DNA of 49,934 bases, taken from NCBI GenBank assembly GCA_938036435.1, contig CALHPU010000025.1, forward strand, positions 1-49,934, read 5' to 3'. Shown one piece after another: positions 6,850-27,512 of the stretch. This stretch comes from an uncultured Pirellulaceae bacterium (lineage in GTDB: Bacteria > Planctomycetota > Planctomycetia > Pirellulales > Pirellulaceae). Under the pieces are notes generated by a model. The model worked only from the letters and a program-made list of their open reading frames with translations. It did not search any database and was not told the DNA's origin. Position numbers and translations under genes: made by a program. The stretch's first letter is position 1; each line of letters opens with the position of its first letter.

Positions 6850-6979
6850 CTAGTGCGTCTCTAAGTCGTGGATCTAGATTTGTTTTATGTGGCACGCCTC
6901 TCCGAGGCGTGAAAACTCGACTCGGAAAGTCGAGCTACGTAGCTTGCAGCCCTAATTCCAAATCTGGAGGCAATCCTAG
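6850..6979 (-). repeat. CTAG-bounded hairpin element, related to family 2 (copy D)
   Basis: The segment is bounded by CTAG at 6850-6853 and 6976-6979. Read on the minus strand, its start contains TCCAGATTTGGAATTAG, as at the left ends of the family 2 copies. The middle holds two hairpins: ACGCCTC/GAGGCGT around 6894-6910, and ACTCGACT/AGTCGAG around 6915-6935, the latter preceded on the minus strand by GTAG. The right CTAG contains the TAG stop codon of galE. It looks like a composite or diverged member. Confidence 0.6.
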
Positions 6980-7998
6980 CCCTTAAACCCGTTCGGGTTT
7001 TTGCTCTGCCATCGCCAGCCGTCGGCACACATATCTTCAATGCCTCGTTCAGCCTTCCAACCTAATTCGTCGGCGGCTTTGGAAGGGTCCGCATAACATG
7101 CGGCGATGTCGCCCGGGCGACGTTCGACTATTTCGTACGGAATCTCTTTCTCCGCCGCAACGCCGAATGCTTTGACAATCTCCAGCACACTATAGCCTTG
7201 GCCTGTGCCAAGATTATAGGTGACAACACCGGGGTTTTTCTCAAGCTTATTCAACGCCAAAACATGTCCGACCGCTAGATCGACGACGTGAATGTAGTCT
7301 CTCACACCCGTGCCATCGGCGGTGTCGTAATCGTTTCCAAAGACTCGCAACTTTTCCAGCTTGCCCACAGCGACCTGCGAAACGTAAGGCAACAGATTGT
7401 TGGGAATGCCATTGGGGTCTTCGCCAATATCGCCCGACTTATGAGCCCCGACGGGATTAAAGTAACGCAGCAGCGCAACGTTGATCGACGGATCACATAC
7501 CTGCCAATCGCGCAGGATATATTCCATGATCAATTTTGAACGTCCGTACGGATTGGTAACCTCGTGGATTGGTGTGTCCGATTCTTCGGTCAAAGGCAAC
7601 GATTTTGGAATCCCATAAACCGTTGCGCTAGAACTGAAGACAAAATTCTTCACACCATGCTCACGCATCGCGAAGCAAATGTTCAAGGTGCCCGTCAGAT
7701 TATTCTCATAGTACTCCAGCGGTTTGGCAACGCTTTCGCCAACCGCCTTTAGCGCGGCAAAATGAATCACCGCATCAAACTGTTCACTGCCTACGATTCG
7801 AACCATCGCAGCGCGGTCACGCAGATCGGCTTCGTAAAACTTGATTTGCTTGCCCGTCAATTGCTCAACTCGCACCAACGACTCCTTGGAGCTATTGGCC
7901 AGGTTATCAATCACGGTCACTTGATGGCCGCTGTTAAGTAGCTCCAGACAAGTGTGGCTGCCAATGTATCCAGCGCCGCCGGTTACCAAAACGTGCAT
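6976..7998 (-). CDS. galE: UDP-glucose 4-epimerase
   Basis: 340 residues, the expected length. An extended SDR enzyme that interconverts UDP-glucose and UDP-galactose. The NAD-binding motif TGGAGYIGSH is at residues 6-15. The catalytic residues are Ser in FSSSATVYG (residues 121-129) and Tyr151/Lys155 in YGRSK. The C-terminal substrate-binding RRPGD is present. UDP-galactose would feed surface polysaccharide or the Leloir pathway; the exopolysaccharide operon just upstream on the same strand makes the former plausible. The TAG stop lies within the CTAG edge of the adjoining repeat. Confidence 0.95.
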   Translation of the reverse strand: MHVLVTGGAGYIGSHTCLELLNSGHQVTVIDNLANSSKESLVRVEQLTGKQIKFYEADLRDRAAMVRIVGSEQFDAVIHFAALKAVGESVAKPLEYYENNLTGTLNICFAMREHGVKNFVFSSSATVYGIPKSLPLTEESDTPIHEVTNPYGRSKLIMEYILRDWQVCDPSINVALLRYFNPVGAHKSGDIGEDPNGIPNNLLPYVSQVAVGKLEKLRVFGNDYDTADGTGVRDYIHVVDLAVGHVLALNKLEKNPGVVTYNLGTGQGYSVLEIVKAFGVAAEKEIPYEIVERRPGDIAACYADPSKAADELGWKAERGIEDMCADGWRWQSKNPNGFKG

Positions 7999-8154
7999 GA
8001 GTCATCTCCCGAGTGTACGACTGAGCCTGTCGCTCATTGAAATTGAGCCGGATTTTTCATCAATCTGGCGTGTGAATGAATTCGCAGATCTCTCGATGGG
8101 CTTCGGCGGTAACGCCGCCGACGCAAGCTTCCGTGCGAGTTGGGTGCAATAGTA

Positions 8155-9210
8155 TTAATTGACATCAGTCACGACGCAACCAAGCAGTCGGGCTCCGCCG
8201 TTTTGCAGTTCTTTCACCGAGGACTTGGCAAAAGTCTCATTGCTTGACTTAAGACTGACAACCAGATAGCTGCCCTCACATACTTCGTACCAAAGTTTGG
8301 CGTGAGCGCTATGAGCGCTTCCTGCAGAAACACAGACAAACTGGTAGTCCTGTTTCATCTCGGCAACGGAATTGATCAGCAGTTGTTTTGCGTTCCATCG
8401 ATCCATGGCGCACTCGCCCACCGGTAAGAATCCAAACGACGATTCGTCGCGTGAGACAACTTTTTCTCGCCAATTTTGATTACGGTTGATGCATTCCAAG
8501 AATCCTTTTTGCCCGGCCAACCCGCTGGCTTGTGTCAACCGGCGACCGTCTACATCGGCGTCAACCAAAAGGACGTTGCCAATATTTCTTGATGCGATGG
8601 CTGAGGCGACGCGAGCGCATGTCTCATCGACGTGTGGGTTCTCTTCAGTACCGACAAACAGCAACACCGTCGATGCGGCTAGTGGAAACCGTTCGAAGAT
8701 CTTATCGACCAAAGCTGAAATCTCGCTTTTGGGCTCTTGGCCCTGCGCTTTGGCTGCCTTGATCGTGTCTAGGTCTGGAACATTAATGACCTTCATTTGA
8801 GAATCATCATCAACAGAGACGGCCGATGAGACGTTAGGAATGCTGACGAATACGATTTGGTGATCGTCAGAACTAGTGCCCGAAGGCGTCGGTTGAGAAG
8901 TGTTCATGTTGGGAAAGACGATGGAGTTCATGTGTTCAACTGCAGGCGCTTCTAGTGTGCCGTGCAGCTGGTTATAAATTTCACGCGTGGCAAAGGTGGG
9001 TGATTCGATTGGAGGATTTGTTGACGACTGCGAAGCGGGCGCCGCGGCATTTTCCATCGGGACAGCACTTAGGCTGTTCAAATCAGCAATTCCAATACAA
9101 CGGGCGGGCGAGTCCGGAATGTCTGACGTTGTGCTCTGGCAGGCTGTTGCTGCTGGAAGGTCTGACTGAAGCCATTGCCGGCCTGAGTGGCTAGAAACTG
9201 TCGATGTCAT
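8155..9210 (-). CDS. CpsD/CapB-like (BY-kinase fold) protein with degenerate P-loop
   Basis: About 351 residues from the ATG at 9210; a GTG start at 9267 would add 19 residues. The N-terminal half is Ser/Thr/Pro-rich and probably disordered. The C-terminal half follows the bacterial tyrosine kinase/MinD fold: a first strand VLLFVGTEENPHVDET where the Walker A GxxxxGK[ST] should be, then NVLLVDADVDGRRL matching Walker A', and a late strand QFVCVSAGS where the Walker B Asp should be. The lysine and the glycine-rich loop are gone, and there is no Tyr cluster at the C-terminus, so catalysis is unlikely. It is the last gene of the operon with the ATPase and Wzz-like genes (132 bp gap). I infer a pseudoenzyme partner in exopolysaccharide export. 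Confidence 0.65.
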   Translation of the reverse strand: MTSTVSSHSGRQWLQSDLPAATACQSTTSDIPDSPARCIGIADLNSLSAVPMENAAAPASQSSTNPPIESPTFATREIYNQLHGTLEAPAVEHMNSIVFPNMNTSQPTPSGTSSDDHQIVFVSIPNVSSAVSVDDDSQMKVINVPDLDTIKAAKAQGQEPKSEISALVDKIFERFPLAASTVLLFVGTEENPHVDETCARVASAIASRNIGNVLLVDADVDGRRLTQASGLAGQKGFLECINRNQNWREKVVSRDESSFGFLPVGECAMDRWNAKQLLINSVAEMKQDYQFVCVSAGSAHSAHAKLWYEVCEGSYLVVSLKSSNETFAKSSVKELQNGGARLLGCVVTDVN

Positions 9211-9342
9211 ATTCGAACTCTGGAAAGTGCGGCTGTTAGTATGGGTTGATTCGAAAGTTTCGAACACTTGGGGTGTTGATCCACGCAGCGCCGATAGCGC
9301 TCAACCTCTGGAACCTGTCACGGGTCGTGAGCAATGAAAGAT

Positions 9343-12300
9343 TTACTGTTCAGTTGACGGATTGCGAAGCTGTTCAAAGAGCTGGTTGTAGTCCATGCGT
9401 TGAGCGTTTCCTGTAGATGTCTCTACATTTGGAAAAGGCGGAGCCTGTGGTGGCTCGGCCGCTTGTGGAGGTGTATATTGCTGAGTCTCGTTGACGTACA
9501 GCATGTCGCGGTCGTCCTGCACTGCCGGCTGTTCGCCCGGTTGTTGGTAGTTCTGGTAACCGGTAACGGGCGTTTCTACCGAAACCGAATCAGCACCGTG
9601 TTCCACGAGTGACTGATCATTCAGAAGACCGCTGACGCCAGTTTGCTCAGGAATTGCCGATGCAGGATCCGTGAAGTGAACCTTGTCCAAGATTTGCTGT
9701 TGCGAAAATATCTCTTTAAGGATCTCTTGCGACTGCTCCTCTGAAGGATCGGTCACAGTCTCGGAAACCAAAGGCTCGACGGGTTGTGGTTGCTCGGAGG
9801 CTTCGGAAGTTTCTACTTCACGCTGCGCTTGAAAGTTACGCATGAATTCTTCGGTTCTGCGACGCGCCTCATCCTGAGCAGTGGATTCTGGTGTTTTGAA
9901 ATCACTGGCCGAGGCATGAGCCGAATAAGGCACTGCAAATCCGGCAGGTTGTTCGGGAGCCGCCAAATGATCGGGCGAGTAGTCAGCACGCGCTTCTGAC
10001 ACATAGCCCTCGCTAGGTGCTTGGGCAGCGTTAACTGCTTCCGCCGAAATGCTGTTTTGCTGGGCATGGTTGGCTTCCATCTGAGGAAGAAGATGGCCGG
10101 GAACGAGATCGTTCAGGTCAATTAGGCCAGCGGTCGTTTCTTCCGCTGGTTGTCCCGGTTGGTCAACTGGGCCGTCGGCAGGATCCTGCTGACTGTTGAG
10201 ATCGAACGTCGCGGCCGAATCAAGATCGCTGGTCAGTGCCTCTAGATCTTCATCCGTCGGAAGCGCGGATTGTGATTGAGGATAGAGACCTGCCTCGGAC
10301 TGAACCGGATCTTGACTCTCTTGTGACGCGAAAGGATCTTGATTGAACGCCGTAGCTGTTTCAGAAACTTCATCGGACGAGACCGAAACCGGCCCCAATT
10401 CCGTCGGTACAGAAGGAACTGGCTCAAACGAGTCTGGCGTTTGCGAACTGACCTCAGAAGGTACTTGGAATTGGCTTGGGTCCCAAGCTGTTTCTTTGTT
10501 GTTCTGCCAAGTGTCTGTCGGAGGAACGGACGATTGGGTGTCGCTCGTGGCGCCTAAATCCGACACGCTATCGTAAGAAGGAAAGTCACTTTGGTCATCA
10601 TTGACAACGTCGGAAGTAGTGGACTCGGTTGAAACGTCTAACGCGTCAAGTTCCTCGATTGCAAGTTCTGGGGTCTGCGTGTTCCAGTGGTCCGACCCCG
10701 CTTCGCTAGTTGTGTCGTTCGAGGTGTCCAAAGGCTGAAGGTGGCTCAATTGATCTGCGGTAACATCCAGCGAAGCTTTATTCTGCTCAGCCACGAAAGG
10801 AGAATAGGCGTCCTGCAGCATTTCCTCTTCTTCGAATGGTTCGGCGAAAGGGTCAGTCGACTCTACGACAGGAGTTTGCGATTCGGCTTCTGTTTCTTGA
10901 TTCGAGTCGCTAATGCAATTCTCGAGGGAATCTGACTCTACAAACGGACGTGGCTCAAACGGGGATGTGTGAAAGGTTGACGGTTCGGATGCGACAGGTT
11001 CGACGAGGCCCAGTTGTTCCTCGATGCTGCACTGAGCCATTGGGCTCGAGCTCTCCTCCGATTGTAAATTTTCAGCCGCGAATGCTTCGACTGGCTCCTC
11101 CTCCGAAGGTGACTCGTATGTTGTGTCGGCCTCATCTTCGGAATCAGAATGAGCCTCGGATTGTTGGGCTTCGTCGGGTACTCGGAACGGATGAGCTGGA
11201 ATCATCTCGTCGACGACCGGAGGTTCAATGCCTTGTTCGTTCAGCCCCAGAACTTCGAAGGCAGACCGCACTTCATCAGAACCAGAATCATCCTGACCGC
11301 GAGTTTGCTCAAACAGTTCATCCTGCTCTTGCTCTAGTGAAGCGATTCTTTCAGATTCGTAATTGCCGTCTTCAAGTTGCTGATCGTCGTCTTGAGGAGC
11401 GAACGGATCTGTACTGGCCGCATGGGCGGCGAACGCGGTGGCAGCAAGGGCCGCAGCGGCAGCGTGGCTGGTTAACGGGCTTGATTCGTCTGGACGAGAA
11501 TCAAATTCCTCGGCGTTGTCTTCTGGAGATAATTCATCGGCTAGCGCATCCTCGTCCTGACCGATCTGCTGTGCATCTTCTTCGACGGCTGCAACATCTT
11601 CGTTCTCATTCTCATCCCCTTCCTCAGCGGGTTGCGCCGCAAAAGGGTCTTCCATTTCGGCGAGGCAGTGGGCGTCCTCCGATACACAAGCGGCTTCGTG
11701 GTCTCCAAGCTGTCCGAATTCAACGACGAAACCCGATTCTTCGTTTGCTTGGGCGTCCACTGCATTGAAGTCCAGTGCTTCAACGTCCATTGCGACCACC
11801 GGCATGTTCTGCATCTCAGCCCACGCCTCACGGATCAACGTTCGGCCAACGGGCAGCTGATCACGGCTGGCGGCCAGCAGCAGCGACTGGTCGCAAAGTT
11901 GATTGATCAGTCTCGGACAGCCATCGGAGTGCACAAAGATTTCCTCGATGGCCTCATTGTCGAAAATCTCATCTCCAGAACGTCCGGCTTGTTCGATGTG
12001 TTGGTATATAAACTGTTCAGTTTCTTGCTTGCTAAGATTTTGCAAAACGCATCGAGCGGCAATACGTTGATTGAACGATGCCAGTTTGGCATCGGTCAGC
12101 GATTCTTCCAATCGCTGAGTGCCTGCGAGAACCAGTTGCACCAAGGAGCGCCCGCCGCGAATCTGATTGGTGATCAATCGCAGTTCGTCGATCAGCTCAA
12201 CAGACAGACGATCAGCCTCATCAACTAGCAACAGCACTCCGTCGTCGGCGCCTTTGCTCTCTTTAAGGTACGCCATAAGGCTCAGTCGCAGTTCGCCTTC

Positions 12301-12609
12301 GGAGAGCCCCGCATAAGGCAGATCTAGTTCGAAAAGAATCGATTGCAAAAGCTCCGAGCGCTCCTCAAGGCGCGAGCACTCAATGTGAACGACATCGAAA
12401 CGCGAGTCAAAAGAGTGGCCAATTTTTTGCAGTAAAAGTGACTTGCCCATCCCAACGGCTCCAACGACGACCACAGGTCCATTGGACCGATCCACGCACA
12501 TGTGAGTGACGTCGATCGCCTGCTGGTAAGAGAGGCCTGCGAAGAAATCTTCAATCCGTGGAACATTGTTGAACGGGCGTGATGAAAATTGAAAGGTCTG
12601 CTCGTACAT
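9343..12609 (-). CDS. ExeA/GspA-type AAA ATPase with ~800-residue acidic disordered tail
   Basis: 1088 residues. Residues 1 to about 270 are an ExeA-type AAA module: start MYEQTFQFSSRPFNN, Walker A GAVGMGKS (50-57), Walker B LLLVDEAD (126-133), and an Arg-rich sensor segment (FNQRIAARC). Similar ATPases occur in XrtA/PEP-CTERM exopolysaccharide loci. The remaining 800 or so residues are low complexity, rich in Glu, Asp, Ser, Gln and Pro, with repeated DPFA motifs and no predicted fold; the end (MDYNQLFEQLRN) looks helical. A Shine-Dalgarno AGGA lies 8 bp before the ATG. It is second in the operon, between the Wzz-like and CpsD-like genes. ExeA relatives are usually 270-500 residues, so the tail is exceptional. 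Confidence 0.8.
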   Translation of the reverse strand: MYEQTFQFSSRPFNNVPRIEDFFAGLSYQQAIDVTHMCVDRSNGPVVVVGAVGMGKSLLLQKIGHSFDSRFDVVHIECSRLEERSELLQSILFELDLPYAGLSEGELRLSLMAYLKESKGADDGVLLLVDEADRLSVELIDELRLITNQIRGGRSLVQLVLAGTQRLEESLTDAKLASFNQRIAARCVLQNLSKQETEQFIYQHIEQAGRSGDEIFDNEAIEEIFVHSDGCPRLINQLCDQSLLLAASRDQLPVGRTLIREAWAEMQNMPVVAMDVEALDFNAVDAQANEESGFVVEFGQLGDHEAACVSEDAHCLAEMEDPFAAQPAEEGDENENEDVAAVEEDAQQIGQDEDALADELSPEDNAEEFDSRPDESSPLTSHAAAAALAATAFAAHAASTDPFAPQDDDQQLEDGNYESERIASLEQEQDELFEQTRGQDDSGSDEVRSAFEVLGLNEQGIEPPVVDEMIPAHPFRVPDEAQQSEAHSDSEDEADTTYESPSEEEPVEAFAAENLQSEESSSPMAQCSIEEQLGLVEPVASEPSTFHTSPFEPRPFVESDSLENCISDSNQETEAESQTPVVESTDPFAEPFEEEEMLQDAYSPFVAEQNKASLDVTADQLSHLQPLDTSNDTTSEAGSDHWNTQTPELAIEELDALDVSTESTTSDVVNDDQSDFPSYDSVSDLGATSDTQSSVPPTDTWQNNKETAWDPSQFQVPSEVSSQTPDSFEPVPSVPTELGPVSVSSDEVSETATAFNQDPFASQESQDPVQSEAGLYPQSQSALPTDEDLEALTSDLDSAATFDLNSQQDPADGPVDQPGQPAEETTAGLIDLNDLVPGHLLPQMEANHAQQNSISAEAVNAAQAPSEGYVSEARADYSPDHLAAPEQPAGFAVPYSAHASASDFKTPESTAQDEARRRTEEFMRNFQAQREVETSEASEQPQPVEPLVSETVTDPSEEQSQEILKEIFSQQQILDKVHFTDPASAIPEQTGVSGLLNDQSLVEHGADSVSVETPVTGYQNYQQPGEQPAVQDDRDMLYVNETQQYTPPQAAEPPQAPPFPNVETSTGNAQRMDYNQLFEQLRNPSTEQ

Positions 12610-12709
12610 GACGAATTCCTGATTAGCTGTTCTGACGAAGCTGAGTTGAAGTTAGGTTGTGGCTCAGCGACTGATTTAGGTGTATGGTCGAAGTCGATTG
12701 CCAAGGAAT

Positions 12710-13915
12710 CTAATTTTGGAACATCCAAGCGATTCGGGCGAATCCATGGAACAAGTTATCGGCGAATGCTGTTCGTATCTCAGGATTAAACAGGCAAAAA
12801 CCGATAGCAATAATCGTGACGGCGAACAGAATCAATTCAGCGAAATTCACGACGTGATTGGCCCAAGGTACCTGACCGGAGGAAAAATCGTAATTTGTAC
12901 CATCCTCCGAGACGTCACCGAGGGTTGCGACAACAGGTACGCCAAGTTTGTGCACTACGCTGGCGGTGTTCTCAAATCCTCTGTCCTCAAAGGGACGGTA
13001 GGCGAGCGTAACCAGCGTTGCCAAAAGGCAAGAAACGCCAGTCAAGAGAATGAAATGTGGCAGCTTAGGGACTCCTCCAATTGGAGTTGGTAGCTGGCCG
13101 CTAACGCCACGTACGGAGAACGCCATCTGGTAGCCGTTGGAGGACGATTGCTTGACCAAACCGGATAGCCGCCCGACGGTCTGCTTGAGTTCATCAATCT
13201 CACTGGCAGTGTTTACCGAAGAAGTTGAAGTATGTGCGACGTTCATGAACGGCGACGAACTTGTTTTGCTAAATTTGGATTCTGCTGATTGTCCCATCCC
13301 GGATTCAAGTCGAGCAAAAATTTCGTTGGCCTGCTGACTGAGTTGTTCAGATTGGGCGATCAGGTCGGCTCCAGCAGCCTCGTTTGACGGTGCGGATTCG
13401 GAGGGAGTGAGTATTCTTCCTGTCCCAAGTTTCGCGTGTGGCGAGGCGAGAAAGTCTCGGGCAATGTTGGTGGTCAGCTGGTTCACCATGTAGTTCTCTG
13501 TTCTCGTTCCATTTCCTCGGTAGGAAACTTTCAAACGGAAATTGCCTTCCTCATCACCCTTAATCAGATTAACGCCAAAACGGGAAGCAAAGTCGCTGCT
13601 GGAAGCAAACTCTGCCAAGGCTCGGCCCGGAATCGCAGATTGGGCCTCTCGGGCAACTCGGAAGACTGAATCTTGTGACGTATGATGTTGCACGATTTCG
13701 GCCAACTGTTGCTTGAACCAGCCGATGGCCACCGGCGTCTTGATCACGTCGATGTCTATGGCCCCTTGGCTGACGTAGCTTCGAACCGAAAGCGGCCAAG
13801 CTAAACTGAGCACAAGAAAGGATGCCAGCGCGACAACCGCAAAGGCCATTAGTTTTCGGCTCCAAAGCGTTTTTTGGATAATGGGCGTTGTTATGTTTGT
13901 ATGTTGATCTGTCAT
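12710..13915 (-). CDS. Wzz/GumC-like polysaccharide chain-length determinant protein
   Basis: About 401 residues from the ATG at 13915; an upstream in-frame GTG at 13945 adds 10. A first membrane segment lies at about residues 18-42 (LMAFAVVALASFLVLSLAW). A periplasmic region follows with the early strand pattern YVSQGAIDIDV seen in Wzz proteins, then a coiled-coil-like stretch (ANEIFARLES...ELKQTVGRLSGLV). Two C-terminal membrane segments (FILLTGVSCLLATLVTLAY and FAELILFAVTIIAIGFCLF) end the protein. Such proteins set polymer length and couple to a cytoplasmic BY-kinase. It is the first gene of the operon, 100 bp before the ATPase. The extra third membrane helix is unusual. Confidence is moderate because primary motifs in this family are weak. 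Confidence 0.65.
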   Translation of the reverse strand: MTDQHTNITTPIIQKTLWSRKLMAFAVVALASFLVLSLAWPLSVRSYVSQGAIDIDVIKTPVAIGWFKQQLAEIVQHHTSQDSVFRVAREAQSAIPGRALAEFASSSDFASRFGVNLIKGDEEGNFRLKVSYRGNGTRTENYMVNQLTTNIARDFLASPHAKLGTGRILTPSESAPSNEAAGADLIAQSEQLSQQANEIFARLESGMGQSAESKFSKTSSSPFMNVAHTSTSSVNTASEIDELKQTVGRLSGLVKQSSSNGYQMAFSVRGVSGQLPTPIGGVPKLPHFILLTGVSCLLATLVTLAYRPFEDRGFENTASVVHKLGVPVVATLGDVSEDGTNYDFSSGQVPWANHVVNFAELILFAVTIIAIGFCLFNPEIRTAFADNLFHGFARIAWMFQN

Positions 13916-14348
13916 TTTTTGAACCGGAAACGGGGTGGGACCCACAAAACTAGCGCATTAGCACGCTTTCGGTGGATCGACGTTCCCGATATTGGGGCTT
14001 GAGTAAAGTTTGCCGAATGTGCTGAATGTGATGACATTCGACGCGCAGAGTAGCGACATTCTGGCTCTGACACACGTGCAAGTGTTCTGATGGCAGCAGT
14101 GCTGGCAGGCGAGGCTGTCGGCAACTCCCGCCGCGAAAGGAAACTCCTTGCGACAAGCGACGGTGCGCTTAAGCGGCGGAGAACCGGGACTACCTCCGAA
14201 ATACGCCGCCTTCAGTGGCAAATCTAGGCAAGATCTTCTTACGCCCCAAGATCCTCAAACGAAATGCACAATTTAGCAGCAAAACTGAGCTCTCAGAGTA
14301 GATTTTATAAGTGTCTCTCGCCCCAGGCGGCTATAGTTAGGAAACAAC
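13916..14348. other. Divergent intergenic region with nested hairpins
   Basis: This region separates the exopolysaccharide operon from the PEP-CTERM protease gene and should hold both promoters. It contains a stem AAGGA/TCCTT near 14139-14152 and a nested hairpin GCGGCG (14173-14178)/CGCCGC (14204-14209) with inner CGGAG/CTCCG. No known riboswitch class was recognised. Short open frames here show no protein features. Confidence 0.4.
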
Positions 14349-15308: not shown

Positions 15309-15362
15309 AAGAATTCAGGTGCCTCCCGTCAACGGCTCCTCGACAGAGAGCTTACGACGACA

Positions 15363-15947: not shown

Positions 15948-15962
15948 TTGTTTACCATCCGT

Positions 15963-16004: not shown

Positions 16005-16007
16005 AAG

Positions 16008-18217: not shown

Positions 18218-18726
18218 GAGATTCTCAACTCTAAGAGAATGTTTCACGCGCTCTTTGACAAATCCTAACCAGATTCGCGATTTGCTCAAATGCCAAGTTG
18301 AGTTGTCAGATTCGAGCGCCAGCAGAAATTTGAGCTGAAAATCTAACCGTTTTTGGGTTTCACGTGGAACTGGAGATGGTTTTTCGAACACGCAGATTTT
18401 TCTGCGTAGAATTGTTTCACGCTCGGTTTGCGACTTGGGTGCGGAAACCTTTGGTGGTGCTGAACGAGGAGTCTCTTTCAGGAGATATGTCGTAGGCGGA
18501 CTGGAAGCTCGCCGCGCATGGACCGTTTGACCGTAGTCGATCTTGCTTGAGATTGGAAAGTTTCTTTTTGGCGATCCAAAGTCTTATCACTTTGGCGGCC
18601 GCGAATTGGTGACAAGGGGCTAACGTGAGTTGAAGCGTTCGTAAGTTTTGAACTTGCGATTATGAAGACCGAATTACGAGTCCGCAGCCTCTTGGCCCGA
18701 CTTGACCATTTCAGTTCCACGTGAAA
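18218..18726. other. parA upstream region
   Basis: Besides parS-like sites 2 and 3 there are partial GTTTCACG half-sites near 18241 and 18414. No gene is evident; the open frames here have no recognisable product. A centromere-like region is the likely role; an origin cannot be claimed, as no DnaA-box cluster was recognised. Confidence 0.5.
18356..18371. promoter_or_regulatory. parS-like site 2
   Basis: GGTTTCACGTGGAACT matches the parS consensus at 14 of 16 positions; only the outermost bases differ. It is 144 bp from site 1. Confidence 0.75.
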
Positions 18727-18728
18727 CC
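18713..18728. promoter_or_regulatory. parS-like site 3
   Basis: AGTTCCACGTGAAACC matches the parS consensus at 14 of 16 positions. Its last bases overlap the left end of a family 2 repeat (from 18727), so the repeat inserted at or into the site. Confidence 0.75.
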
Positions 18729-18892
18729 AGTGCTTCGTCCGGATCTGGGATTAGGATTTAGACAAAAGCAAAAGGGCGCTAACGCTCCGGTCCCCACCGT
18801 TGATCAATTGGTGTTTTATACCGAACGGCTTGCGCCATTACGCTTTAAGAGCCCACCGACAACCCGGAAATTCAATCTGGATGACGCATTAG
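18727..18892 (+). repeat. CTAG-family 2 repeat, copy A
   Basis: About 166 bp, from CCAGTGCTTCGTCC to ATGACGCATTAG. It aligns with 20528-20692 and, inverted, with 27348-27512. Shared blocks include AAAAGGGCGC, GGTCCCCACCGTTGATCAAT, a TATACC block and TACGCTTTAAG. The termini are imperfect inverted repeats (TTCGTCC...GATC / GATTCATCC type). The boundary tetranucleotides are CCAG and TTAG instead of CTAG, so this copy is more decayed. Confidence 0.75.
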
Positions 18893-18923
18893 TGGTTACG
18901 TGCTGCTCAGTTAGTGACCAAGC

Positions 18924-20165
18924 CTACTGTGGCCTGAGCTGTCCAGACATGTTGAGATAAGCGGTTGCTACGATGGCGTAGCCGGCGGGAATCGTGGCAA
19001 TAACGCCTACACCACAGGCGACGATACCCATCATCATCGCCAAAAAGGCGACGAAAAATATTGGTATCACAATCAAGCAATTCTTCACACCAATTGAACA
19101 ACCTTTGCTTATCATCTCGGCTAAACGTAGCTTCGTGTCTGCTAGCAAAAAGAAGATTGGCCACACGACTAGCCCGAACAGCATGGAGAGGATGACGCCT
19201 CCGATAACGGTGATCAGTACCGCAACTCCTGCCTCATCGCCGAATCTAAATCCATCTGGGCCGACAAAGAGTAAGAGCCCGCCTCCAATGACAATAAATG
19301 GCAGGTACACCAGAAAGACCAGCAACAATGCAAGGGGCAACCTATTGGCACTTCGGAACAGCGTCGCATACTCAGTCCGCTCGCCGCGACACAGCTGGCA
19401 GGTTACCTTGATAAATCCAAGCGTTAGCCACATTTGAGTACCTATTGAGATTAGCGTAGATACGACAACCGCCGCCCCAATGATCCATTTGTTTCCTGCC
19501 GCAGCTAACCCGACTATCATCACCTGTTGAAGGATTTGGGTTGCATAGTTGACCCCCACGAGCGTTGCGAAGACTGCTAGCATGATTCCGAAGTTCTCTG
19601 TCCAAGTTTTCCAACCGTGGGAAATAGCGAATTCGATGTTTCCCGAGGTCGGCACGATCTCTCGCCTTACCTCCGGGCCAGCGCTTGCATGAGGTATTGG
19701 ACTGGACGCGTAAGGGTTGAGTTCGTTTGGGTTAGACGGCGCTTCAGCGGATTGCTGGAACTGTGCGAACTGATCGTTGGCACCTGCCGTTGCAGCGACA
19801 GCACCGCCAAGTGAGGGAAACATTTGGCTGGCCATCGTCCACGCGTCGGAACCTGTCTGCTGTAGCTGACAGTTTGGAGTGATCCGACCTTCATCCAGCC
19901 ACTGTTTAAGTGTCGCTGAATCAGCCGGGCCGAACACGGCTCCGTTGACTGCTGATTTCACGCTGTAAGTTTCGGTGCCGGTGGGCTGCGTGGTTAATGG
20001 GTCGCCGTTGATGACCGATTCACCGCCCAGAGACGTTTCTGCCGAAGCGTCAGCCGGAATGGTGTTCAAATGTCCACATTCGTTGCAGCGACCTTTTTTG
20101 CCCGCAGCACTCTCGGGAACTTTCAGCTTCTTCTGGCAGTTTTCGCAGTCAAATTGAATTGGCAT
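18924..20165 (-). CDS. Membrane protein with N-terminal zinc ribbon and GYF_2 domain
   Basis: 413 residues from the ATG at 20165 (MPIQFDCENCQKK); the open frame runs 25 codons further. Residues 6-33 form a CxxC...CxxC zinc ribbon (CENC, CNEC). Residues about 75-125 resemble the GYF_2/DUF4339 module (YSVKSAVNGAVFGPAD, LKQWLDEGRI, ASQMFPSL). The C-terminal half has five or six membrane segments with charged loops. This architecture is frequent in planctomycetes and its function is unknown. It stands alone with wide gaps on both sides. Confidence 0.72.
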   Translation of the reverse strand: MPIQFDCENCQKKLKVPESAAGKKGRCNECGHLNTIPADASAETSLGGESVINGDPLTTQPTGTETYSVKSAVNGAVFGPADSATLKQWLDEGRITPNCQLQQTGSDAWTMASQMFPSLGGAVAATAGANDQFAQFQQSAEAPSNPNELNPYASSPIPHASAGPEVRREIVPTSGNIEFAISHGWKTWTENFGIMLAVFATLVGVNYATQILQQVMIVGLAAAGNKWIIGAAVVVSTLISIGTQMWLTLGFIKVTCQLCRGERTEYATLFRSANRLPLALLLVFLVYLPFIVIGGGLLLFVGPDGFRFGDEAGVAVLITVIGGVILSMLFGLVVWPIFFLLADTKLRLAEMISKGCSIGVKNCLIVIPIFFVAFLAMMMGIVACGVGVIATIPAGYAIVATAYLNMSGQLRPQ

Positions 20166-20527
20166 CGGAAGATCTTTTCGTACTGTGCGTGAAAGTGGTT
20201 GAGATACTTGGTCTATCCGGCTAATAGTGTGACGGATCAATATCGAATTTCAATCAAAAGCGGCTTATAATTCAGACGCGGCGGGAAAATTTCCTTTTTT
20301 CCCAAACGATCGAAAAACCTTGCCAACGCGTCAGTCACGTACGGTTCGGTGCTTCATTTGGTTCCCAGTCTTCGCTAGTATTGATCCGCAGCACAATTTT
20401 TGGGTAGGCGATTTGCGAGGCCAAAACGGTGGGGCCGGTTTTTAAGCTGCAATATCTAGGTCCTTAGCAGATTGAAAACCTGCCCTACGAGAGCACGTCC
20501 ATCCGAAAATCAAGCTGTAGCGAAATA
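20166..20527. other. Intergenic region, nothing recognised
   Basis: Upstream of the zinc-ribbon/GYF gene. A GGGAAAA/TTTTCCC-type stem lies near 20283-20303; otherwise no gene or known site is seen. Confidence 0.4.
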
Positions 20528-20692
20528 TTAGTGTTTGATCCAGATTTGGAATTAGTATTTAGATGAAAGCGAAAGGGCGCGAGCCCTTCTGTCCCCGTCG
20601 TCAACCAATTGGTATCTATACCCGACCGCTCGCGTAGTTACGCTTTAAGCGCGAACCGGTAACCTGAAAATTGAATCTGGATGAAGCACTAG
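20528..20692 (+). repeat. CTAG-family 2 repeat, copy B
   Basis: 165 bp, from TTAGTGTTTGATCC to GGATGAAGCACTAG. It shares TCCAGATTTGGAATTAG with copy D, and the GAAAGCGAAAGGGCGCGAGC and CAATTGGTAT blocks with copy C. Its last four bases (CTAG, 20689-20692) are also the first four of the adjoining family 1 copy. Confidence 0.78.
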
Positions 20693-20819
20693 TGGTCTGT
20701 CAACATCTAATTTTAGGGTAGCTGGATTCGCCAGAATTCAGTTCAGCAGTATAAAACCGAAGTCTGGCGACTCCGGCTACGATGACACACTCTAACTTCC
20801 ATCCCTGACAAACCACTAG
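20689..20819 (+). repeat. CTAG-bounded foldback element, family 1, copy 2
   Basis: 131 bp with CTAG at both ends. Terminal inverted repeat CTAGTGGTCTGTCA against TGACAAACCACTAG (13 of 14 pair). GTAG (20718-20721) starts REP-like hairpin 1; the opposed hairpin ends in CTAC (20777-20780). Copies 1 and 3 differ at only a few bases. It ends 5 bp before the start codon of the next gene. Confidence 0.9.
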
Positions 20820-20824
20820 GTCTA

Positions 20825-21883
20825 ATGCACGTACAGTTCCGATGCACCAATAATCTTTTTGATCCGTCAGGTGGCAAACGTCCTTGTGGACGACAGCTTC
20901 GCGCGCCAAGCGATAAAGCTGGGCGTCACGCAAAATGCCCGCAATGTGGCGGCAAGGTCAAAATCCCGTCGCGCAGTGCCCCCGAGTTTGCGGCGGACTC
21001 GCCGGGACCGGTTGCGATGGATCCGGTTGCTTCGGTCAATGATGATGAAGATCTCTATCTCCGGGTCTCTCAAGACGACTACGATGACCCTGTGTTTGAC
21101 GGTGCGACAAGAACCGGAGCAATAGAGACCACGCGACCCAAGAAGAATCCGAGCGCCGATGCCAATCCTCGCACAGCGAACTTTCTTCCGATCGATAACG
21201 TCGGCAGGTGCCGCAAATGTGGCAAAAAGACGGACAAAAGAGGCTATTGCGGCACTTGCAATTACTCGTCGGCCTCGCGCGAGAAAAGGGCTGCTCAACC
21301 GATCGACGACATCAAAATCAAAACCGCTGGGATGCAACTGTGGCTTTCTAACGTCGTCGCAGAAGGAGTTCCGCCGGGGATCTTAGCCGTCATGCTTCAT
21401 GTCCTTTTTACTGTCTTTACTCTTGTCGCGCTGTTCGTCGTCTACACCGGCACCAATGGCCTAATGTTGGTTGCAGCGGGAGCTTTTGTGTTGGCGATTG
21501 CATTCTTTTACGCCGCGACCGTCTGGAAGACGCTACAGTTCAGCCGCGATCCATACACTCAACTGGCTTGGTTCCAACGCCCGTTTTGGGATGGCGTTTT
21601 GTGGTATTGCCGTAAGAACAATTGGGCCGACGCTAAAAACCCAAGCCGTGTCGTCATCGACCGTCGGCAATCGTCAATGACCAATCAGGAGCTGGACAAG
21701 GTAAAAGGCTTGAAGAGCGCTTCAGTGCTCGATTTGGAAGGGACGATGATCACCGATGATGCGTTTCGTTTTTTTTACCGCATCGACGACTTGCAGTGTT
21801 TGGTATTGAAGGATACGGCGGTGTCGCATGAGGCCGTTTTTCGATTGCAACAAGCGCGGCCCAAGCTATGGATTTGGTATTGA
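20825..21883 (+). CDS. Zinc-ribbon membrane protein with C-terminal LRR-like segment
   Basis: 352 residues. A cysteine cluster at residues 7-42 (C..C...CPQC) and a second zinc ribbon CRKCGKK...CGTC (about residues 124-140) are followed by two membrane segments (GILAVMLHVLFTVFTLVALFVVY, LMLVAAGAFVLAIAFFYAATV). The last 70 residues read LKSASVLDLEGTMITDDAF and LQCLVLKDTAVSHEAV, like planctomycete leucine-rich repeats. The ATG is only 5 bp after a family 1 element, so the element supplies its leader. The gene stop overlaps the methyltransferase start (TGATG), indicating coupling. Function unknown. Confidence 0.72.
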   Translation: MHVQFRCTNNLFDPSGGKRPCGRQLRAPSDKAGRHAKCPQCGGKVKIPSRSAPEFAADSPGPVAMDPVASVNDDEDLYLRVSQDDYDDPVFDGATRTGAIETTRPKKNPSADANPRTANFLPIDNVGRCRKCGKKTDKRGYCGTCNYSSASREKRAAQPIDDIKIKTAGMQLWLSNVVAEGVPPGILAVMLHVLFTVFTLVALFVVYTGTNGLMLVAAGAFVLAIAFFYAATVWKTLQFSRDPYTQLAWFQRPFWDGVLWYCRKNNWADAKNPSRVVIDRRQSSMTNQELDKVKGLKSASVLDLEGTMITDDAFRFFYRIDDLQCLVLKDTAVSHEAVFRLQQARPKLWIWY

Positions 21884-22728
21884 TGTTTGAAGAAGATCAA
21901 TATGCACTGATCGATTTTGGAGGCGGCGAGAAACTGGAGCGGTTTGGCGCTCGAACGGTGCGGCGAGAAACTCCATCCGTTGACGTCGGAGCGGCCGATA
22001 AGGACCGTTGGTTAGGCGATGCGGCATTCGAGAGGGATTACCGATCCAATGGAGGGCAGTGGAAGTCGGACTCGCCCCCAAAGGACAATTGGTCAATCGA
22101 ACACGCAGGCAAGCGGTTCCTGTTGAAGCAAGCTCCTTCTGGGCAGGTCGGCGTTTTTCCCGAACAGGCGATCAATTGGCACTGGATCGAGCGGCAGCGT
22201 GAGGGGCTCGTTGGGCTAAACGCGATCAACCTTTTTGCCTACACCGGCGGCACCACAATGTCATTGGCCAAGTGTGGCGTGTCGGTGACGCACGTGGATG
22301 CGGCAAAACCGGCAGTCGCATGGGCGCGAGAGAACGCTGTGGCCTCGGGCATGGGCGATGCACCTGTGCGCTGGATCGTCGATGACGCTTTGTCGTTTAT
22401 GAAACGTGAAGTCAAACGCGGTCGGCGATATCAGATCATTGTCGCCGACCCTCCCTCGTTCGGTCGCGGCCCGGGCAAAGACGTTTGGAAGATTCAACGT
22501 GACATGGCGACGCTAATGGAACTGGCCGGGCAATTGGCTGGCGATCAGCTCAAAATGCTGGTTATTTCGTGTCACACGCCGGGCATCGATGCCGACGACC
22601 TGCGAGAGTATGCTCGACGTGGCCCGAAGGTGCGAAATGGATCAGGTGAAGCGCTAGAGTTGATCCTGCAATCGCAGTCAGGGGCGCTGCTTCACAGTGG
22701 AGATTGCTTTCGCTGGAGCGACCTCTAG
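21883..22728 (+). CDS. Class I SAM-dependent methyltransferase (RlmI-like)
   Basis: 281 residues from the ATG in TGATG at 21883; the frame is open five codons upstream. The SAM-binding motif I is INLFAYTGGTTMSLAK, motif II VTHVDAAKPAVAWARENA, and motif IV is IIVADPPSFGRG, the DPPSF that marks RlmI/RlmK-like rRNA m5C or m2G methyltransferases. An N-terminal strand YALIDFGGGEKLERFG replaces a full PUA domain. It probably methylates RNA in the cytoplasm. The TAG stop lies in the CTAG left edge of repeat copy 3, and a SpoU-type methyltransferase follows the element. Confidence 0.85.
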   Translation: MFEEDQYALIDFGGGEKLERFGARTVRRETPSVDVGAADKDRWLGDAAFERDYRSNGGQWKSDSPPKDNWSIEHAGKRFLLKQAPSGQVGVFPEQAINWHWIERQREGLVGLNAINLFAYTGGTTMSLAKCGVSVTHVDAAKPAVAWARENAVASGMGDAPVRWIVDDALSFMKREVKRGRRYQIIVADPPSFGRGPGKDVWKIQRDMATLMELAGQLAGDQLKMLVISCHTPGIDADDLREYARRGPKVRNGSGEALELILQSQSGALLHSGDCFRWSDL

Positions 22729-22855
22729 TGGTCTGTCAACATTTAATTTTAGGGTAGCTGGATTCGCCAGAATTCAGTTCAGCAGTATAAAACCGAAGTC
22801 TGGCGACTCCGGCTACGATGACACACTCTAACTTCCATCACTGACAAACCACTAG
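22725..22855 (+). repeat. CTAG-bounded foldback element, family 1, copy 3
   Basis: 131 bp with CTAG at 22725-22728 and 22852-22855. It carries the same inverted termini and opposed GTAG hairpins (GTAG 22754-22757, CTAC 22813-22816) as copies 1 and 2. The left CTAG contains the TAG stop of the upstream methyltransferase. It separates two RNA methyltransferase genes that would otherwise be nearly adjacent. Confidence 0.9.
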
Positions 22856-22873
22856 CCTTCGGGACAAATCATC

Positions 22874-23695
22874 ATGCAACCCATCACTAGCCCCAACAGC
22901 AAACGATTCAAGGACGCGTTTCAATTGCATCGCTCGCGCGGTCGCAAGAAGCAAGATCGCATCATCATATTTGGGTGGCGCGAGGTATTGCGCTCGATAG
23001 AATCCGGCGTGCGACCGGATGAGATTTTTTTGTGTGACCGAGGGATGCAAGCCCCACCGTTGGAAAAGCTGCGGACGATGTTGGCCAGTCAATCACGATC
23101 TGAAGACTGCCTCTATCGTTTGGCCGATGATCTGTTTAAATCGTTGAGCTACGGCGACCGACCGGACGGGGTCATCATGACCGCCCGTCGACCCAGCACC
23201 AACCTTGCGTCGCTAGATGAAAAGATTGACGGCAGTGGATCTAACTCGTTGATCGTCATTTGCGAGCGACTGGAGAACCCCGGTAATCTTGGCGGTTTGG
23301 TGAGGTCGGCCGACGGCAGCGGAACTGCGGCAGTGATCGTGGCCGATGCGCTGACCGACGCCTTTCATCCCAACGCAATTCGCAATAGCGCGGGAGCCGT
23401 TTTTAGCACTCCGGTGGCCACCGCTTCGGTCGGCGACGTTCAAGCTTGGTTGATCGAGCGCGGGTATAGGATTTTGGTCGCGTCTCCTGATGCAAAAGAC
23501 GCCCTCTACGCGCAAGACCTTTCGTGCAAGGCCGCAGTCGTCCTCGGCAACGAGGCCGCAGGAGTCTCCGAGCAATGGCGACTTGCCACCGTCGAGCAGT
23601 TTCGTCTCCCCATGCTTGGAGTGGCCGATAGCCTTAACGTTTCGGTGACTGGTGCCATCGTGATGTACGAGGCATTGCGCCAGAATGGCCGATAG
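22874..23695 (+). CDS. TrmH/SpoU-family RNA 2'-O-methyltransferase
   Basis: 273 residues. The N-terminal substrate-binding domain (SPNSKRFKDAFQLHRSRGRK... IIIFGWREVLRSIESG) is followed by the SPOUT catalytic domain. SPOUT motif 1 is ICERLENPGNLGGLVRSADG, motif 2 is VVLGNEAAGVSEQW, and motif 3 is LPMLGVADSLNVSVTGAIVMYEA. It methylates ribose 2'-OH in rRNA or tRNA; the exact target is not predictable. The start ATG lies 18 bp after repeat copy 3. It is probably cotranscribed with the following glycosyltransferase. Confidence 0.92.
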   Translation: MQPITSPNSKRFKDAFQLHRSRGRKKQDRIIIFGWREVLRSIESGVRPDEIFLCDRGMQAPPLEKLRTMLASQSRSEDCLYRLADDLFKSLSYGDRPDGVIMTARRPSTNLASLDEKIDGSGSNSLIVICERLENPGNLGGLVRSADGSGTAAVIVADALTDAFHPNAIRNSAGAVFSTPVATASVGDVQAWLIERGYRILVASPDAKDALYAQDLSCKAAVVLGNEAAGVSEQWRLATVEQFRLPMLGVADSLNVSVTGAIVMYEALRQNGR

Positions 23696-23779
23696 TTTGT
23701 GAACCAGCCCGGCGGAACTCGTCCACTGGCGGCTTTCAAACGGTTCAAAAGGATCCGTTCGGTGTTACAATCGATAGCT

Positions 23780-24538
23780 ATGATTCCTTCTACGCCGCAG
23801 ACAGCCAATGCTCCTTCGCGATTCGGTCGTGTTTCGTTTGTTGTGCCAGCCCATAATGAGCAGAGTTACCTGCGTGCCACCCTGCAGCAGTTGAACAGGA
23901 TCGCTGGAAAGCTGTTGGCTGACTTCGAGATCTTAGTGGTCAACGACGCGTCTACTGATTTAACCTCGCAGATTGCCATTGAAAACGGTGCCCGGGTGAT
24001 CGACGTCGATCTCCGCAACATTGGCGCCGTCAGAAATGCCGGGGCAAAGGAAGCTCGGTTTGATTGGATTGTATTCGTGGACGCTGACACAATCGTCCCA
24101 GAGAAGACACTCCTCGGTTCGTTGCGGGCGCTTTCGGGCGGAGCGGTGGGAGGCGGAGCGTTCGTTTCCCTAGATCAGGTTCAACCGATTGGCTGGTTTA
24201 AGATGGGACTTTACTATGCCGTCAGTCTGATTTGGCAAACGCTTGGTCGCTGGGCTGCGGGTTGCTATATGTTTTGCCGTAAGGATGCTTTCGAGTTCTT
24301 CGGTGGTTTCGACGAGCAGTATTTTGCTGCGGAGGAATTGTTTTTCAGCGTTGAACTGAAGAGGTTGGGTAAATTTCAACTGGTACGAGATCCCGTAGTT
24401 ACGTCCTCAAGAAAGTTCCACAACTACACGGCCGGCCAGTTGATACGATTCGTATTTCTTCCTTTGACCATGCTTCTCAAAGGGGCTCCACTTCGAAGTC
24501 GATTTGGCTTGGAGTTGCTTTACAAAGACGACCGTTAA
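23780..24538 (+). CDS. Family 2 glycosyltransferase
   Basis: 252 residues from the ATG at 23780; the frame is open from a GTG at 23699. GT-A fold motifs are SFVVPAHNE (start), LVVNDASTDLT, and FVDADTIVP with the DxD metal site. FCRKDAFEFFGGFDEQYFAAEE follows as in GT2 proteins. A possible -10 TACAAT lies at 23766-23771, just before the chosen start. The acceptor is unknown. The ends of the protein are soluble apart from a short hydrophobic segment (IRFVFLPLTMLL) that may be membrane-associated. Confidence 0.88.
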   Translation: MIPSTPQTANAPSRFGRVSFVVPAHNEQSYLRATLQQLNRIAGKLLADFEILVVNDASTDLTSQIAIENGARVIDVDLRNIGAVRNAGAKEARFDWIVFVDADTIVPEKTLLGSLRALSGGAVGGGAFVSLDQVQPIGWFKMGLYYAVSLIWQTLGRWAAGCYMFCRKDAFEFFGGFDEQYFAAEELFFSVELKRLGKFQLVRDPVVTSSRKFHNYTAGQLIRFVFLPLTMLLKGAPLRSRFGLELLYKDDR

Positions 24539-24733
24539 AGGCCGGCTAATCGCACCTTTGCTGTCACTTTCAGGGTTTTTCCCCCAGTAAAACGGCAGTT
24601 GTGCGGGGAAACTTTCCGAAATAGTTAAGATAGGGAGAGGTAAAATTCCCGAAAAGTGTTGAATTTGCTGAATCGTCGGATACATTAGTACTTTGAAGAC
24701 CTGCCAAGACTTGCTCCATAGACGAAAACTTCC

Positions 24734-25516
24734 ATGATGTCTGGACAAAATTTGATGCTTAGATTCCTGCCTTTGATCCTAGCAACGCTTTGTTTAACCG
24801 CGATAAACACCAATACCGCCCTCGGCGAGCAGATCGTGATCGATGAAAACTCAGTCGACGGAATTGCCGCCGGTGACTTTTATTGCTCACCTTGTTATTC
24901 GCCGATCCTTGCCGACGCCGGTTCGATAAATATCGCATCCAATACGTTGACCACCGGCGAGCTATACAAGTATTTCAAGTCGCGCGGAATCAAACGACTT
25001 GAACGCTTGTCTTTTCAGGTAGACGTAGACTGCGATCCAGACAACGTAAAGTCGGTTTCTCTCACGGAACTTAGCTTCCAGATTCAAGATGCTGCCAAGA
25101 ATTTGGTGACTGATGCAGCATTTGGCGATACCGAACTTCTTTTGGATCAGTCTGAGATCACGTCTTTTAAACCTGAAGCGGTGCTTGAAGTTGATCTTGG
25201 TTACGACTTCATGCAACGCTTTTCCGCCGACAGCACCGAAGCGGTAGAACTCAATTTCGCCAGCTCGCAAAGCGCTGCGGGAATGATGCCTAGAATCGTG
25301 TTGAGCTCGAATATTTCGAGTTTCTCCTCATCGAACCTCGTCCGCATTGGCGGCTTTATCGCATTCTGGGGTGTCATCTTCTTCGGTGCTCACGTGATCT
25401 CGCGGAAGTTGGCCAAAGACGGCAATGACACGCAAGGAAAGCAGGTCACTCTCACAGCCAATGCCAGTGCAACATCTGCTGCGTCGCGGCTGACGTCACG
25501 TATGGCTAACCGGTAG
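24734..25516 (+). CDS. Exported membrane-anchored protein of unknown function
   Basis: 260 residues. A signal peptide lies at about residues 8-32 (LRFLPLILATLCLTAINTNTALG). An extracytoplasmic domain of about 165 residues contains a CSPC motif and several beta-type stretches. A single C-terminal membrane helix (IGGFIAFWGVIFFGAHVI) is followed by a basic, then Ser/Ala-rich cytoplasmic tail. I do not recognise the family. It stands alone between the glycosyltransferase and glgC. Confidence 0.65.
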   Translation: MMSGQNLMLRFLPLILATLCLTAINTNTALGEQIVIDENSVDGIAAGDFYCSPCYSPILADAGSINIASNTLTTGELYKYFKSRGIKRLERLSFQVDVDCDPDNVKSVSLTELSFQIQDAAKNLVTDAAFGDTELLLDQSEITSFKPEAVLEVDLGYDFMQRFSADSTEAVELNFASSQSAAGMMPRIVLSSNISSFSSSNLVRIGGFIAFWGVIFFGAHVISRKLAKDGNDTQGKQVTLTANASATSAASRLTSRMANR

Positions 25517-25973
25517 AGAGAAAAGCCTTTGCCCTCTTAACGATTGCCCTCTCTCGATGCCGTCGTTCGTTAATGGATCGCAGGCCGAATTTCGGCGATC
25601 AAGTTTTAGCGATTCGGTCCTGACGCTCGCCCGAAGATCTTTGTTTCGCTCGCGAAACTGTTGCGTTTTAGTTAAATCAGACCGGACGCTTGCGATCGAA
25701 CGCTGGAATTAAGGACCATGGAGCGCTTGCTCTCCCTTTCGATTTTAGATTCAATCGATTTGGGAGGTTCGTCGAAAGTGCAGGTTCCTCTGCGAAGGAT
25801 TGCTTTGGGTGGAATAGGAAAGCTTTCACGATGTTTCTCCGCTCCGGTGAATAAAAGGCGGGTGCAAAGTCCTTGTTTGTCTTTTGTGTAGCTGGCGGAG
25901 ACTTTATATTGATGCCTCCATTGTGAATTAGGCTCCTTCTTCAACTCCCGTCCGGCGACGGGGCAGGCTAAAG
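25517..25973. other. Intergenic region upstream of glgC
   Basis: No gene or known RNA is recognised. The minus-strand frame at 25672-26031 has no protein features and overlaps the glgC start, so it is not called. Confidence 0.45.
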
Positions 25974-27206
25974 ATGAAAAATGTGATGGCTGTAGTATTG
26001 GCCGGCGGCAAAGGATCAAGACTGGAGCCACTGACCAGAGATCGGGCTAAACCGGCGGTTCCTTTTGGTGGCGACTATCGAATCGTTGACTTCGCTCTTT
26101 CAAATTGCCTCAACAGTGGTCTCAGGAAGCTGATTCTGTTGACCCAATACAAGGCGATGAGTCTTGATAGGCATGTCAACAATGGCTGGCGAAGGTACTT
26201 CTGTAGCGAGATGGGTGACTTCATCGATGTTATGCCGCCCCAACAGAGAATCGACGAAAACTGGTACAAGGGTACAGCCGACGCAGTTTACCAGAATATT
26301 TACGCGATCGAGAAAGAGTGTCCAGAGGAAGTCCTGATTCTCGCAGGTGACCACATCTACAAGATGGATTACCAAGCGATGGTAAAAACACATCGCGCCA
26401 ACAAAGCCGACCTAACGGTGGCTGCTTTGCAGGTGACGGTCGAAGAGGCCAAGTCTTTTGGTGTGATGGCGGTCGATGATCAGCAACGGATCATTGGGTT
26501 TGATGAAAAGCCTGAACATCCGCAGACTGTACCGGGCGAAGACAATATCGCGCTGGCAAGTATGGGTGTCTATGTTTTTTCTGCGCGGTTTTTGTTCGAG
26601 CAATTGTTGCGGGACGCCAATGATCCGGATAGTAACCACGATTTTGGTAAGAACATTATTCCTGCGATCATCAACGATCACCGCGTCTTTGCTTATCCAT
26701 TTCGAGATGAAAACAAAAAGAAGCAAGCCTATTGGCGTGACGTCGGTACCATCGACGCCTACTATGAAGCAAATATGGATCTGATTCAGGTCGATCCTTT
26801 ACTCAACATGTACGATCAGCACTGGCCAATACGAAGTTTTCAAGGGAACTTTCCACCGCCAAAATTTGTTTTCAATGATCAGGGCTTAGGCGAAGATCGA
26901 CTGGGAATGGCGACCGACAGCATCGTTTGTTCTGGAAGCATAATCTCTGGCGGAAGAGTCGAGCGATCGATCATCGGTCCGCAAGTGCGTATTGACAGTT
27001 GCGCACAGGTCCAGGATTCGATTCTGTTCGATCGCGTCGTGGTGGGAAGGAACGCCAAAATCCGTCGAGCCATCATCGACAAGAACGTCGTGATTCCAGA
27101 CAATGCAGAGATTGGTTATAGCGTTGAACAGGATTTGTGTCGCGGTTTTACGATCACTGATTCAGGGCTGGTCATCGTTGGCAAGAACGATCCAATCGAC
27201 GGCTAG
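25974..27206 (+). CDS. glgC: Glucose-1-phosphate adenylyltransferase (ADP-glucose pyrophosphorylase)
   Basis: 410 residues, near the usual 400-430. Makes ADP-glucose for glycogen from ATP and glucose-1-phosphate. The N-terminal signature VLAGGKGSRLEPLTRDRAKPAVP, the substrate lysine region VGTIDAYYEANMDL and the loop YQNIYAIE are all present. The C-terminal left-handed beta-helix has hexapeptide-type repeats (SIVCSGSIISGGRVERSIIG). The TAG stop lies in a CTAG at 27203-27206 that begins a repeat-filled gap. No other glycogen genes are in the window. Confidence 0.95.
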   Translation: MKNVMAVVLAGGKGSRLEPLTRDRAKPAVPFGGDYRIVDFALSNCLNSGLRKLILLTQYKAMSLDRHVNNGWRRYFCSEMGDFIDVMPPQQRIDENWYKGTADAVYQNIYAIEKECPEEVLILAGDHIYKMDYQAMVKTHRANKADLTVAALQVTVEEAKSFGVMAVDDQQRIIGFDEKPEHPQTVPGEDNIALASMGVYVFSARFLFEQLLRDANDPDSNHDFGKNIIPAIINDHRVFAYPFRDENKKKQAYWRDVGTIDAYYEANMDLIQVDPLLNMYDQHWPIRSFQGNFPPPKFVFNDQGLGEDRLGMATDSIVCSGSIISGGRVERSIIGPQVRIDSCAQVQDSILFDRVVVGRNAKIRRAIIDKNVVIPDNAEIGYSVEQDLCRGFTITDSGLVIVGKNDPIDG

Positions 27207-27347
27207 GGTGTCCGATGCGGGCGTGTCCTGATGGACACCAGAAGCTCGCTTGCGATTGGCGAGCAGCAAGCGGTGGAAGCCTTGCGTTGCTTAAAGCAAG
27301 CGTACGCGTGTGCCCAGCGTAAGAATTGACTCTCACCTCAAAACTGT
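27207..27347. repeat. Hairpin-rich segment after glgC
   Basis: The segment contains GTGTCC/GGACAC (27223-27228 with 27233-27238), an alternative arm GGTGTCC at 27207-27213, and GCTCGC/GCGAGC (27244-27249 with 27259-27264). No T-run follows, so this is not a standard terminator. It lies between the CTAG at the glgC stop and family 2 copy C and may be a third element. Confidence 0.5.
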
Positions 27348-27512
27348 CTAACGCTTCATCCAGATTCAATTTCCGCTTTGCCGGCTCGTTCCTAAAGCGT
27401 AACGGCGCATCCCGTCGGCTATAAATACCAATTGATTAACGGTGGGGACCGGAGGGCTCGCGCTCTTTCGCTTTCATACTAATCCTAATTCCAAATCAGG
27501 ACGAAGGACTAG
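27348..27512 (-). repeat. CTAG-family 2 repeat, copy C (inverted)
   Basis: 165 bp in reverse orientation relative to copies A and B. Read on the minus strand it starts CTAGTCCTTCGTCC, contains GAAAGCGAAAGAGCGCGAGC and GGTCCCCACCGTTAATCAAT, and ends GGATGAAGCGTTAG. The CTAG at 27509-27512 contains the stop codon of the minus-strand GlsB-like gene. Confidence 0.78.

Follow-up and report, generated by a model that had tools for sequence, protein, structure and literature searches.

Why do several short repeat elements in a planctomycete contig begin exactly at the TAG stop codon of a neighbouring gene? The window analysed here is a stretch of 49,934 nucleotides, contig C25 in the assembly of an uncultured Pirellulaceae bacterium (G000, the own genome; 4.57 Mb in 176 contigs, 90% complete and broken at repeats). 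It contains seven recognised copies of CTAG-edged inverted-repeat elements of roughly 120–165 bp, three of family A, three of family B and one of family C, and four of the seven lie at a gene stop (galE, RlmI-like, GlsB-like and dockerin genes). The original prediction held that the elements use CTAG as their target, that CTAG is often rare in coding DNA but tolerated as a C-TAG stop, and that insertion there leaves the protein intact. We consider it very probable that the elements are non-autonomous MITEs, that CTAG-targeting DDE transposases of the IS630 family (Tc1/mariner type) move them in trans, and that copies in coding sequence have been lost.

Elements and gene ends in the window

All the CTAGs and stop codons quoted in the prediction exist in the sequence, and three of the stops lie inside a CTAG at an element edge. 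The galE-like gene (6976–7998, minus strand; PF16363/PF01370) has its TAG inside the CTAG at 6976–6979, which is also an edge of element C (130 bp, 6850–6979, minus strand), an element with CTAG at both edges and one end that resembles family B by eye. The C-TAG stop of the RlmI-like methyltransferase gene (21868–22728, plus strand; PF10672) is the left CTAG of the family A reference copy (22725–22855, plus strand; CTAG at both edges, DNA fold z −6.25), and the coding score of the gene's last 30 codons is normal. The CTAG at 27509–27512 is both the C-TAG stop of the GlsB-like open reading frame (27509–27895, minus strand) and an edge of a family B copy (27348–27512, minus strand). The names RlmI-like and GlsB-like were given at the first reading of the sequence; a Pfam search with the GlsB-like gene returned no match, and a first contig scan with the RlmI-like protein as query found no relative. 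The fourth stop belongs to a dockerin-domain gene (4742–6442, minus strand; PF00404, E = 1.3e-6). As predicted, its TAG (4742–4744) lies at an element edge, adjoining the right end of a family A copy (4614–4744, plus strand, 98% identical to the A reference) where C replaces G as the outer base and the target reads C-TA-C.

A fifth stop, that of glgC (C-TAG at 27203–27206, plus strand), had also been taken for a repeat edge, but within the own genome the 150 bp that follow it have no match other than themselves. The nearest element, the B copy at 27348–27512, begins about 145 bp downstream of the stop, and the first bases past the stop resemble by eye the post-glgC spacer of a relative, G005.

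The remaining copies lie away from gene stops. A degenerate B copy (18725–18892, plus strand) is 76% identical to the B reference and has no CTAG edge. A B copy of about 165 bp (20526–20692, plus strand) shares its right-end CTAG with the next A copy (20689–20819, plus strand), which is placed at that terminal CTAG. Besides this pair (20526–20819), A copies placed immediately at the CTAG that ends a B or A2 copy were seen at loci L193, L183 and L199; element ends themselves seem to be used as targets, with chains as the result. Elsewhere in the window, a gene at 36475–38532 consists largely of 48-base tandem coding repeats (families D1 and D3).

Family A is 131 bp long, has the terminal inverted repeats CTAGTGGTCTGTCA / TGACAAACCACTAG and a strong fold, and carries no transposase gene. 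It is near identical across the own genome (at least 40 scored copies at 98–100% identity). The 51 sequences taken gave 47 family A matches, among them contig-end copies whose flank is common to another contig (L128/L212, L123/L184, L118/L211, and L015/L019/the second copy of L193), so that distinct sites are fewer than 47 and some of these copies are probably one site split between two contig ends. Families A2 and A3 have ends in common with family A. With at most one mismatch allowed, the A terminal repeat is matched 99 times in the own genome, a figure that covers other families as well as some chance hits. Element C has 13 matches there including itself, 11 of the 12 others partial. Many contigs of the own genome and of G012 start or finish inside a MITE copy. 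This makes the number of copies uncertain, and gaps in the assembly may hide the transposase that is missing here.

IS630-type partners and the CTAG target

The terminal repeat of family A, TAGTGGTCTGTCA, also bounds IS of 1205–1241 bp in sister genomes. Among 21 transposase matches, 11 loci were examined and nine had a pair of ends; outer C and G were present in all nine (9/9) and TA on both sides in 8/9. In G003, a genus-mate of the window's source genome, the IS transposase is split over two frames, and HTH domains and DDE_3 (PF13358, E = 1.3e-20) are recognised in the pieces. By the IS630 model NF033545, the second piece is a member (E = 2e-39) and the first is below the cut-off. No IS630 transposase match was found in the own assembly, which is 90% complete; MITEs usually share a genome with their autonomous partner, although they need not. 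A 1.86-kb end pair in contig C34 was considered as an autonomous element and rejected: inspection by eye of its open reading frames of at least 150 aa revealed no transposase, and a pair of A2-like copies forms its ends. The shared ends point to mobilisation in trans of family A by such transposases. Families B and C would belong to the same system; the family B end GTGCTTCATCC resembles by eye the end of a Pan216 IS, GTGCATCATCC.

The search was extended to IS relatives in named genomes, of which 80 of 286 were fetched, presumably from Planctomycetes, Cyanobacteria, Acidobacteria, Bacteroidetes and other groups, as judged in part by the record titles. Ends could be scored in 61 of the 80 loci (of the others, eight yielded no ends and 11 missed the match threshold), and 58 of these 61 copies had the outer C and G, the exceptions being L264, L314 and L331. 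CTAG was present on both sides of 35 of the 45 measurable A copies. Among the ten odd copies, the outer base was changed and TA kept in five, two of which have one common flank, and TA itself was changed in three. Together with the two element-free sites described below, these counts uphold the view of CTAG as the target. The outer-base variants would mostly favour a duplication of TA over one of CTAG in family A. One of the five, L102, has GTAG on both sides and thus fits a 4-bp duplication better; the other outer-base variants are one-sided. Both element-free sites are compatible with a duplication of either TA or CTAG.

CTAG is also a target of IS5-type elements (YTAR), so the elements could in principle be of IS5 type and duplicate the 4 bp YTAR. 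CTAG fits YTAR, L102 shows GTAG on both sides, and MITEPsy1 of Pseudomonas, marked 'IS5?', inserts at CTAG or YTAA (PMC3189936). However, the transposases encoded by the autonomous elements that share these ends are IS630/DDE_3, so the partners found are not IS5, and the variants other than L102 are one-sided. We regard an IS5-type origin as very improbable.

The wording of the target can also be turned around: CTAG may be part of the element's own terminal repeat, and an element that inserts close to the end of a gene may bring in a TAG stop that shortens or lengthens the gene. CTAG at both edges in most A copies is what a fixed end would give, and the RlmI-like orthologue of G005, which has the same protein length, ends in A-TAG with a spacer that cannot be aligned. 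This site therefore shows no pre-insertion CTAG and lends no support to CTAG as a target. At two other orthologous sites, however, G005 already has a C-TAG stop and no element, which is what the proposed alignment of empty sites in relatives was expected to reveal. The GlsB-like gene of G005, in a stretch orthologous to that of the window, ends in CTAG and has no B copy. At serA, the own genome reads GGGCTAG-element-TTAG-GTTGATC, with a family A copy directly behind the stop, and G005 reads GGGC-TAG-GTTGATC. In addition, the outermost base varies in 5/45 copies with TA kept, and edge genes keep their coding signal up to the last codon (mean 3.6 in 13 edge genes vs 3.3 in 488 others). With these points, we regard a CTAG supplied by the element as very improbable.

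Under the IS630 reading, the transposase would insert at the TA of CTAG and duplicate TA. Both A ends start with G, so C-TA-G would be restored on either side and a C-TAG stop would be a harmless site in either orientation, the codon being rebuilt and the protein unchanged. The claim that such an insertion keeps the protein intact agrees with SerA, which is 97% identical between the two genomes and ends in DWLG in both, with or without the element. A terminator-like hairpin is seen by eye downstream of serA in both genomes; the A copy of the own genome thus sits between the stop and the terminator.

Occupancy of stops, spacers and genes

The own-genome census covered 41 stretches (773,685 bases) that were chosen because they bear elements, took only the 38 A matches inside them, and relied on gene calls from a simple coding-model script of our own making. 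Copies without a CTAG edge were removed before the counts (A copies L102 and L121, 7 of 16 A2, 1 of 2 A3, 4 of 13 B and 1 of 2 C), as were contig-end copies (8 A and 1 B at the edge stage; 4 A in the occupancy census, plus one nested A2). Of the 48 A/A2/A3 copies, 14 lay at stops and 27 in spacers, 2 fell within called genes, 4 were contig-end copies and 1 was nested; the 1088 unoccupied CTAGs comprised 28 stops, 295 in spacers and 765 in called genes. TAG was the commonest stop in these stretches (235 of 522 called genes).

Occupancy by A/A2/A3 copies was 14 of 42 for C-TAG stops, 27 of 322 for CTAGs in spacers and 2 of 767 for those in coding sequence. The avoidance of coding sequence was pronounced, with 2 of 43 copies in called genes vs 765 of the 1088 control CTAGs; one of the two reads as the dockerin stop and the other lies 19 bases inside a called start. 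These figures contradict the premise that CTAG is rare in coding DNA, as most unoccupied CTAGs were in called genes and 1223 CTAGs were observed vs 1329 expected. Copies in coding CTAGs would instead be lost by selection, leaving those in spacers and at C-TAG stops; copies in genes have presumably been purged. This loss of coding insertions would account for most of the pattern, beyond which a residual excess at stops is seen.

That excess was clear in the own genome. Stops were occupied more often than spacers, with an odds ratio of 5.5 (95% interval 2.6–11.6; Fisher p = 3.4e-5) that ranged from 4.5 to 6.7 across three gene-call cut-offs. Stop CTAGs were also occupied more often than the remaining CTAGs 3′ of genes (14/45 vs 6/77, p = 0.0017), in comparison classes that were picked after the first counts had been seen; the denominator is 45 rather than 42 because in this table a stop that carries B or C counts as empty. 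Convergent spacers were occupied in none of 35 cases.

Stops may be favoured beyond the availability of CTAG, either through a preference of the machinery or because a hairpin behind the stop is retained as useful. The 3′-side comparison speaks for this, in the own genome and in four genomes pooled (22/70 stops vs 13/110 others, p = 0.0018). So does the age of the copies: the 10 scored copies at stops are as young as the 25 in spacers (0.8 vs 3.2 mean changes, p = 0.58, the spacer mean being driven by one chimera with 53 changes), so that slow purging is not an obvious cause. On the other side, base profiles of 78 flank sides and 628 control sides differ little by eye, which gives no target motif wider than CTAG, and copies at stops are not clearly biased in orientation (8 same, 6 opposite). 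The gene calls are script-made, the excess outside the own genome is small, and in G014 convergent spacers are filled as often as stops (4/9 vs 6/19). Weighing these observations, we think it unlikely that stops are favoured in this way.

Other genomes and known systems

The original prediction had proposed comparing copies at TAG stops with the background of CTAG sites, and the expected excess held for the own genome. It did not hold individually for G014 (6 stop and 14 spacer copies vs 13 and 45 unoccupied CTAGs; odds ratio 1.5, p = 0.55), for G008 (1 and 10 vs 1 and 28; odds ratio 2.8, p = 0.48) or for the named IS copies (8 stop, 41 spacer and 6 coding of 55 vs 24, 206 and 185; odds ratio 1.7, p = 0.23). 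The last set derives from 61 loci taken at a less strict cut, for which C and G were a precondition, with 6 short-flank loci removed. G012 gave p = 0.02 from three copies only (2 stop and 1 spacer vs 3 and 48). Contig-end copies made up 6/9 in G012, 2/13 in G008 and 1/21 in G014. Pooled without the own genome, the stop odds ratio was 1.9 (p = 0.059). Stop insertion recurs in other genomes; its excess is clear in the own genome and weak elsewhere.

A bolder version of stop preference would have IS630-type elements, or selection, single out stops among CTAGs as a built-in safe harbour at gene 3′ ends, where the G at both element ends would regenerate TAG and a hairpin would come to lie between stop and terminator, as at serA. 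We consider such a harbour unlikely. If the stop excess were general, it would represent a simple safe-site strategy for CTAG-targeting transposons; if not, the elements illustrate clearly how a known target rule combines with selection. The data describe, at the level of sequence, a way in which a high-copy mobile element could spare its host by using as target a stop codon that the element end rebuilds.

Both the CTAG preference of IS630 and the existence of IS630-type MITEs were already known. IS630 of Shigella sonnei is said, in work of Tenzen and Ohtsubo from 1991, to transpose preferentially to the TA in CTAG. The elements studied here are like it in the IS630-family transposase and the CTAG preference, but they are 131-bp, non-autonomous and high-copy, reside in a planctomycete, and lie in part at stops. 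Transposition of IS630/Tc1/mariner elements duplicates TA, and ISY100 of Synechocystis moves by cut-and-paste into TA with such a duplication; the portion of that source available to us describes no CTAG or stop-codon pattern for ISY100 (PMC2170065). RUP of Streptococcus pneumoniae is a 107-bp IS630-type MITE with more than 100 copies, thought to be moved by IS630-Spn1, and is over-represented between convergent genes (PMC2229807, PMC3049150). The parts of these two sources available to us describe no coincidence of RUP with stop codons, and convergent spacers were occupied in 0/35 cases in the own genome and 4/9 in G014. Among the matches listed in our literature search, we found no report of IS630-type elements at stop codons in titles and abstract openings.

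Two further observations concern single genomes. In Planctomycetes bacterium TBK1r, four of the seven classified IS630 copies lie at a C-TAG stop (L278, L281, L282 and L283), and an eighth copy was seen outside these seven. In G011 (L061, L071 and L076), A copies are 97–98% identical to those of the own genome and a SerA fragment (residues 304–538) is only 82% identical, which suggests recent transfer or stray contigs.
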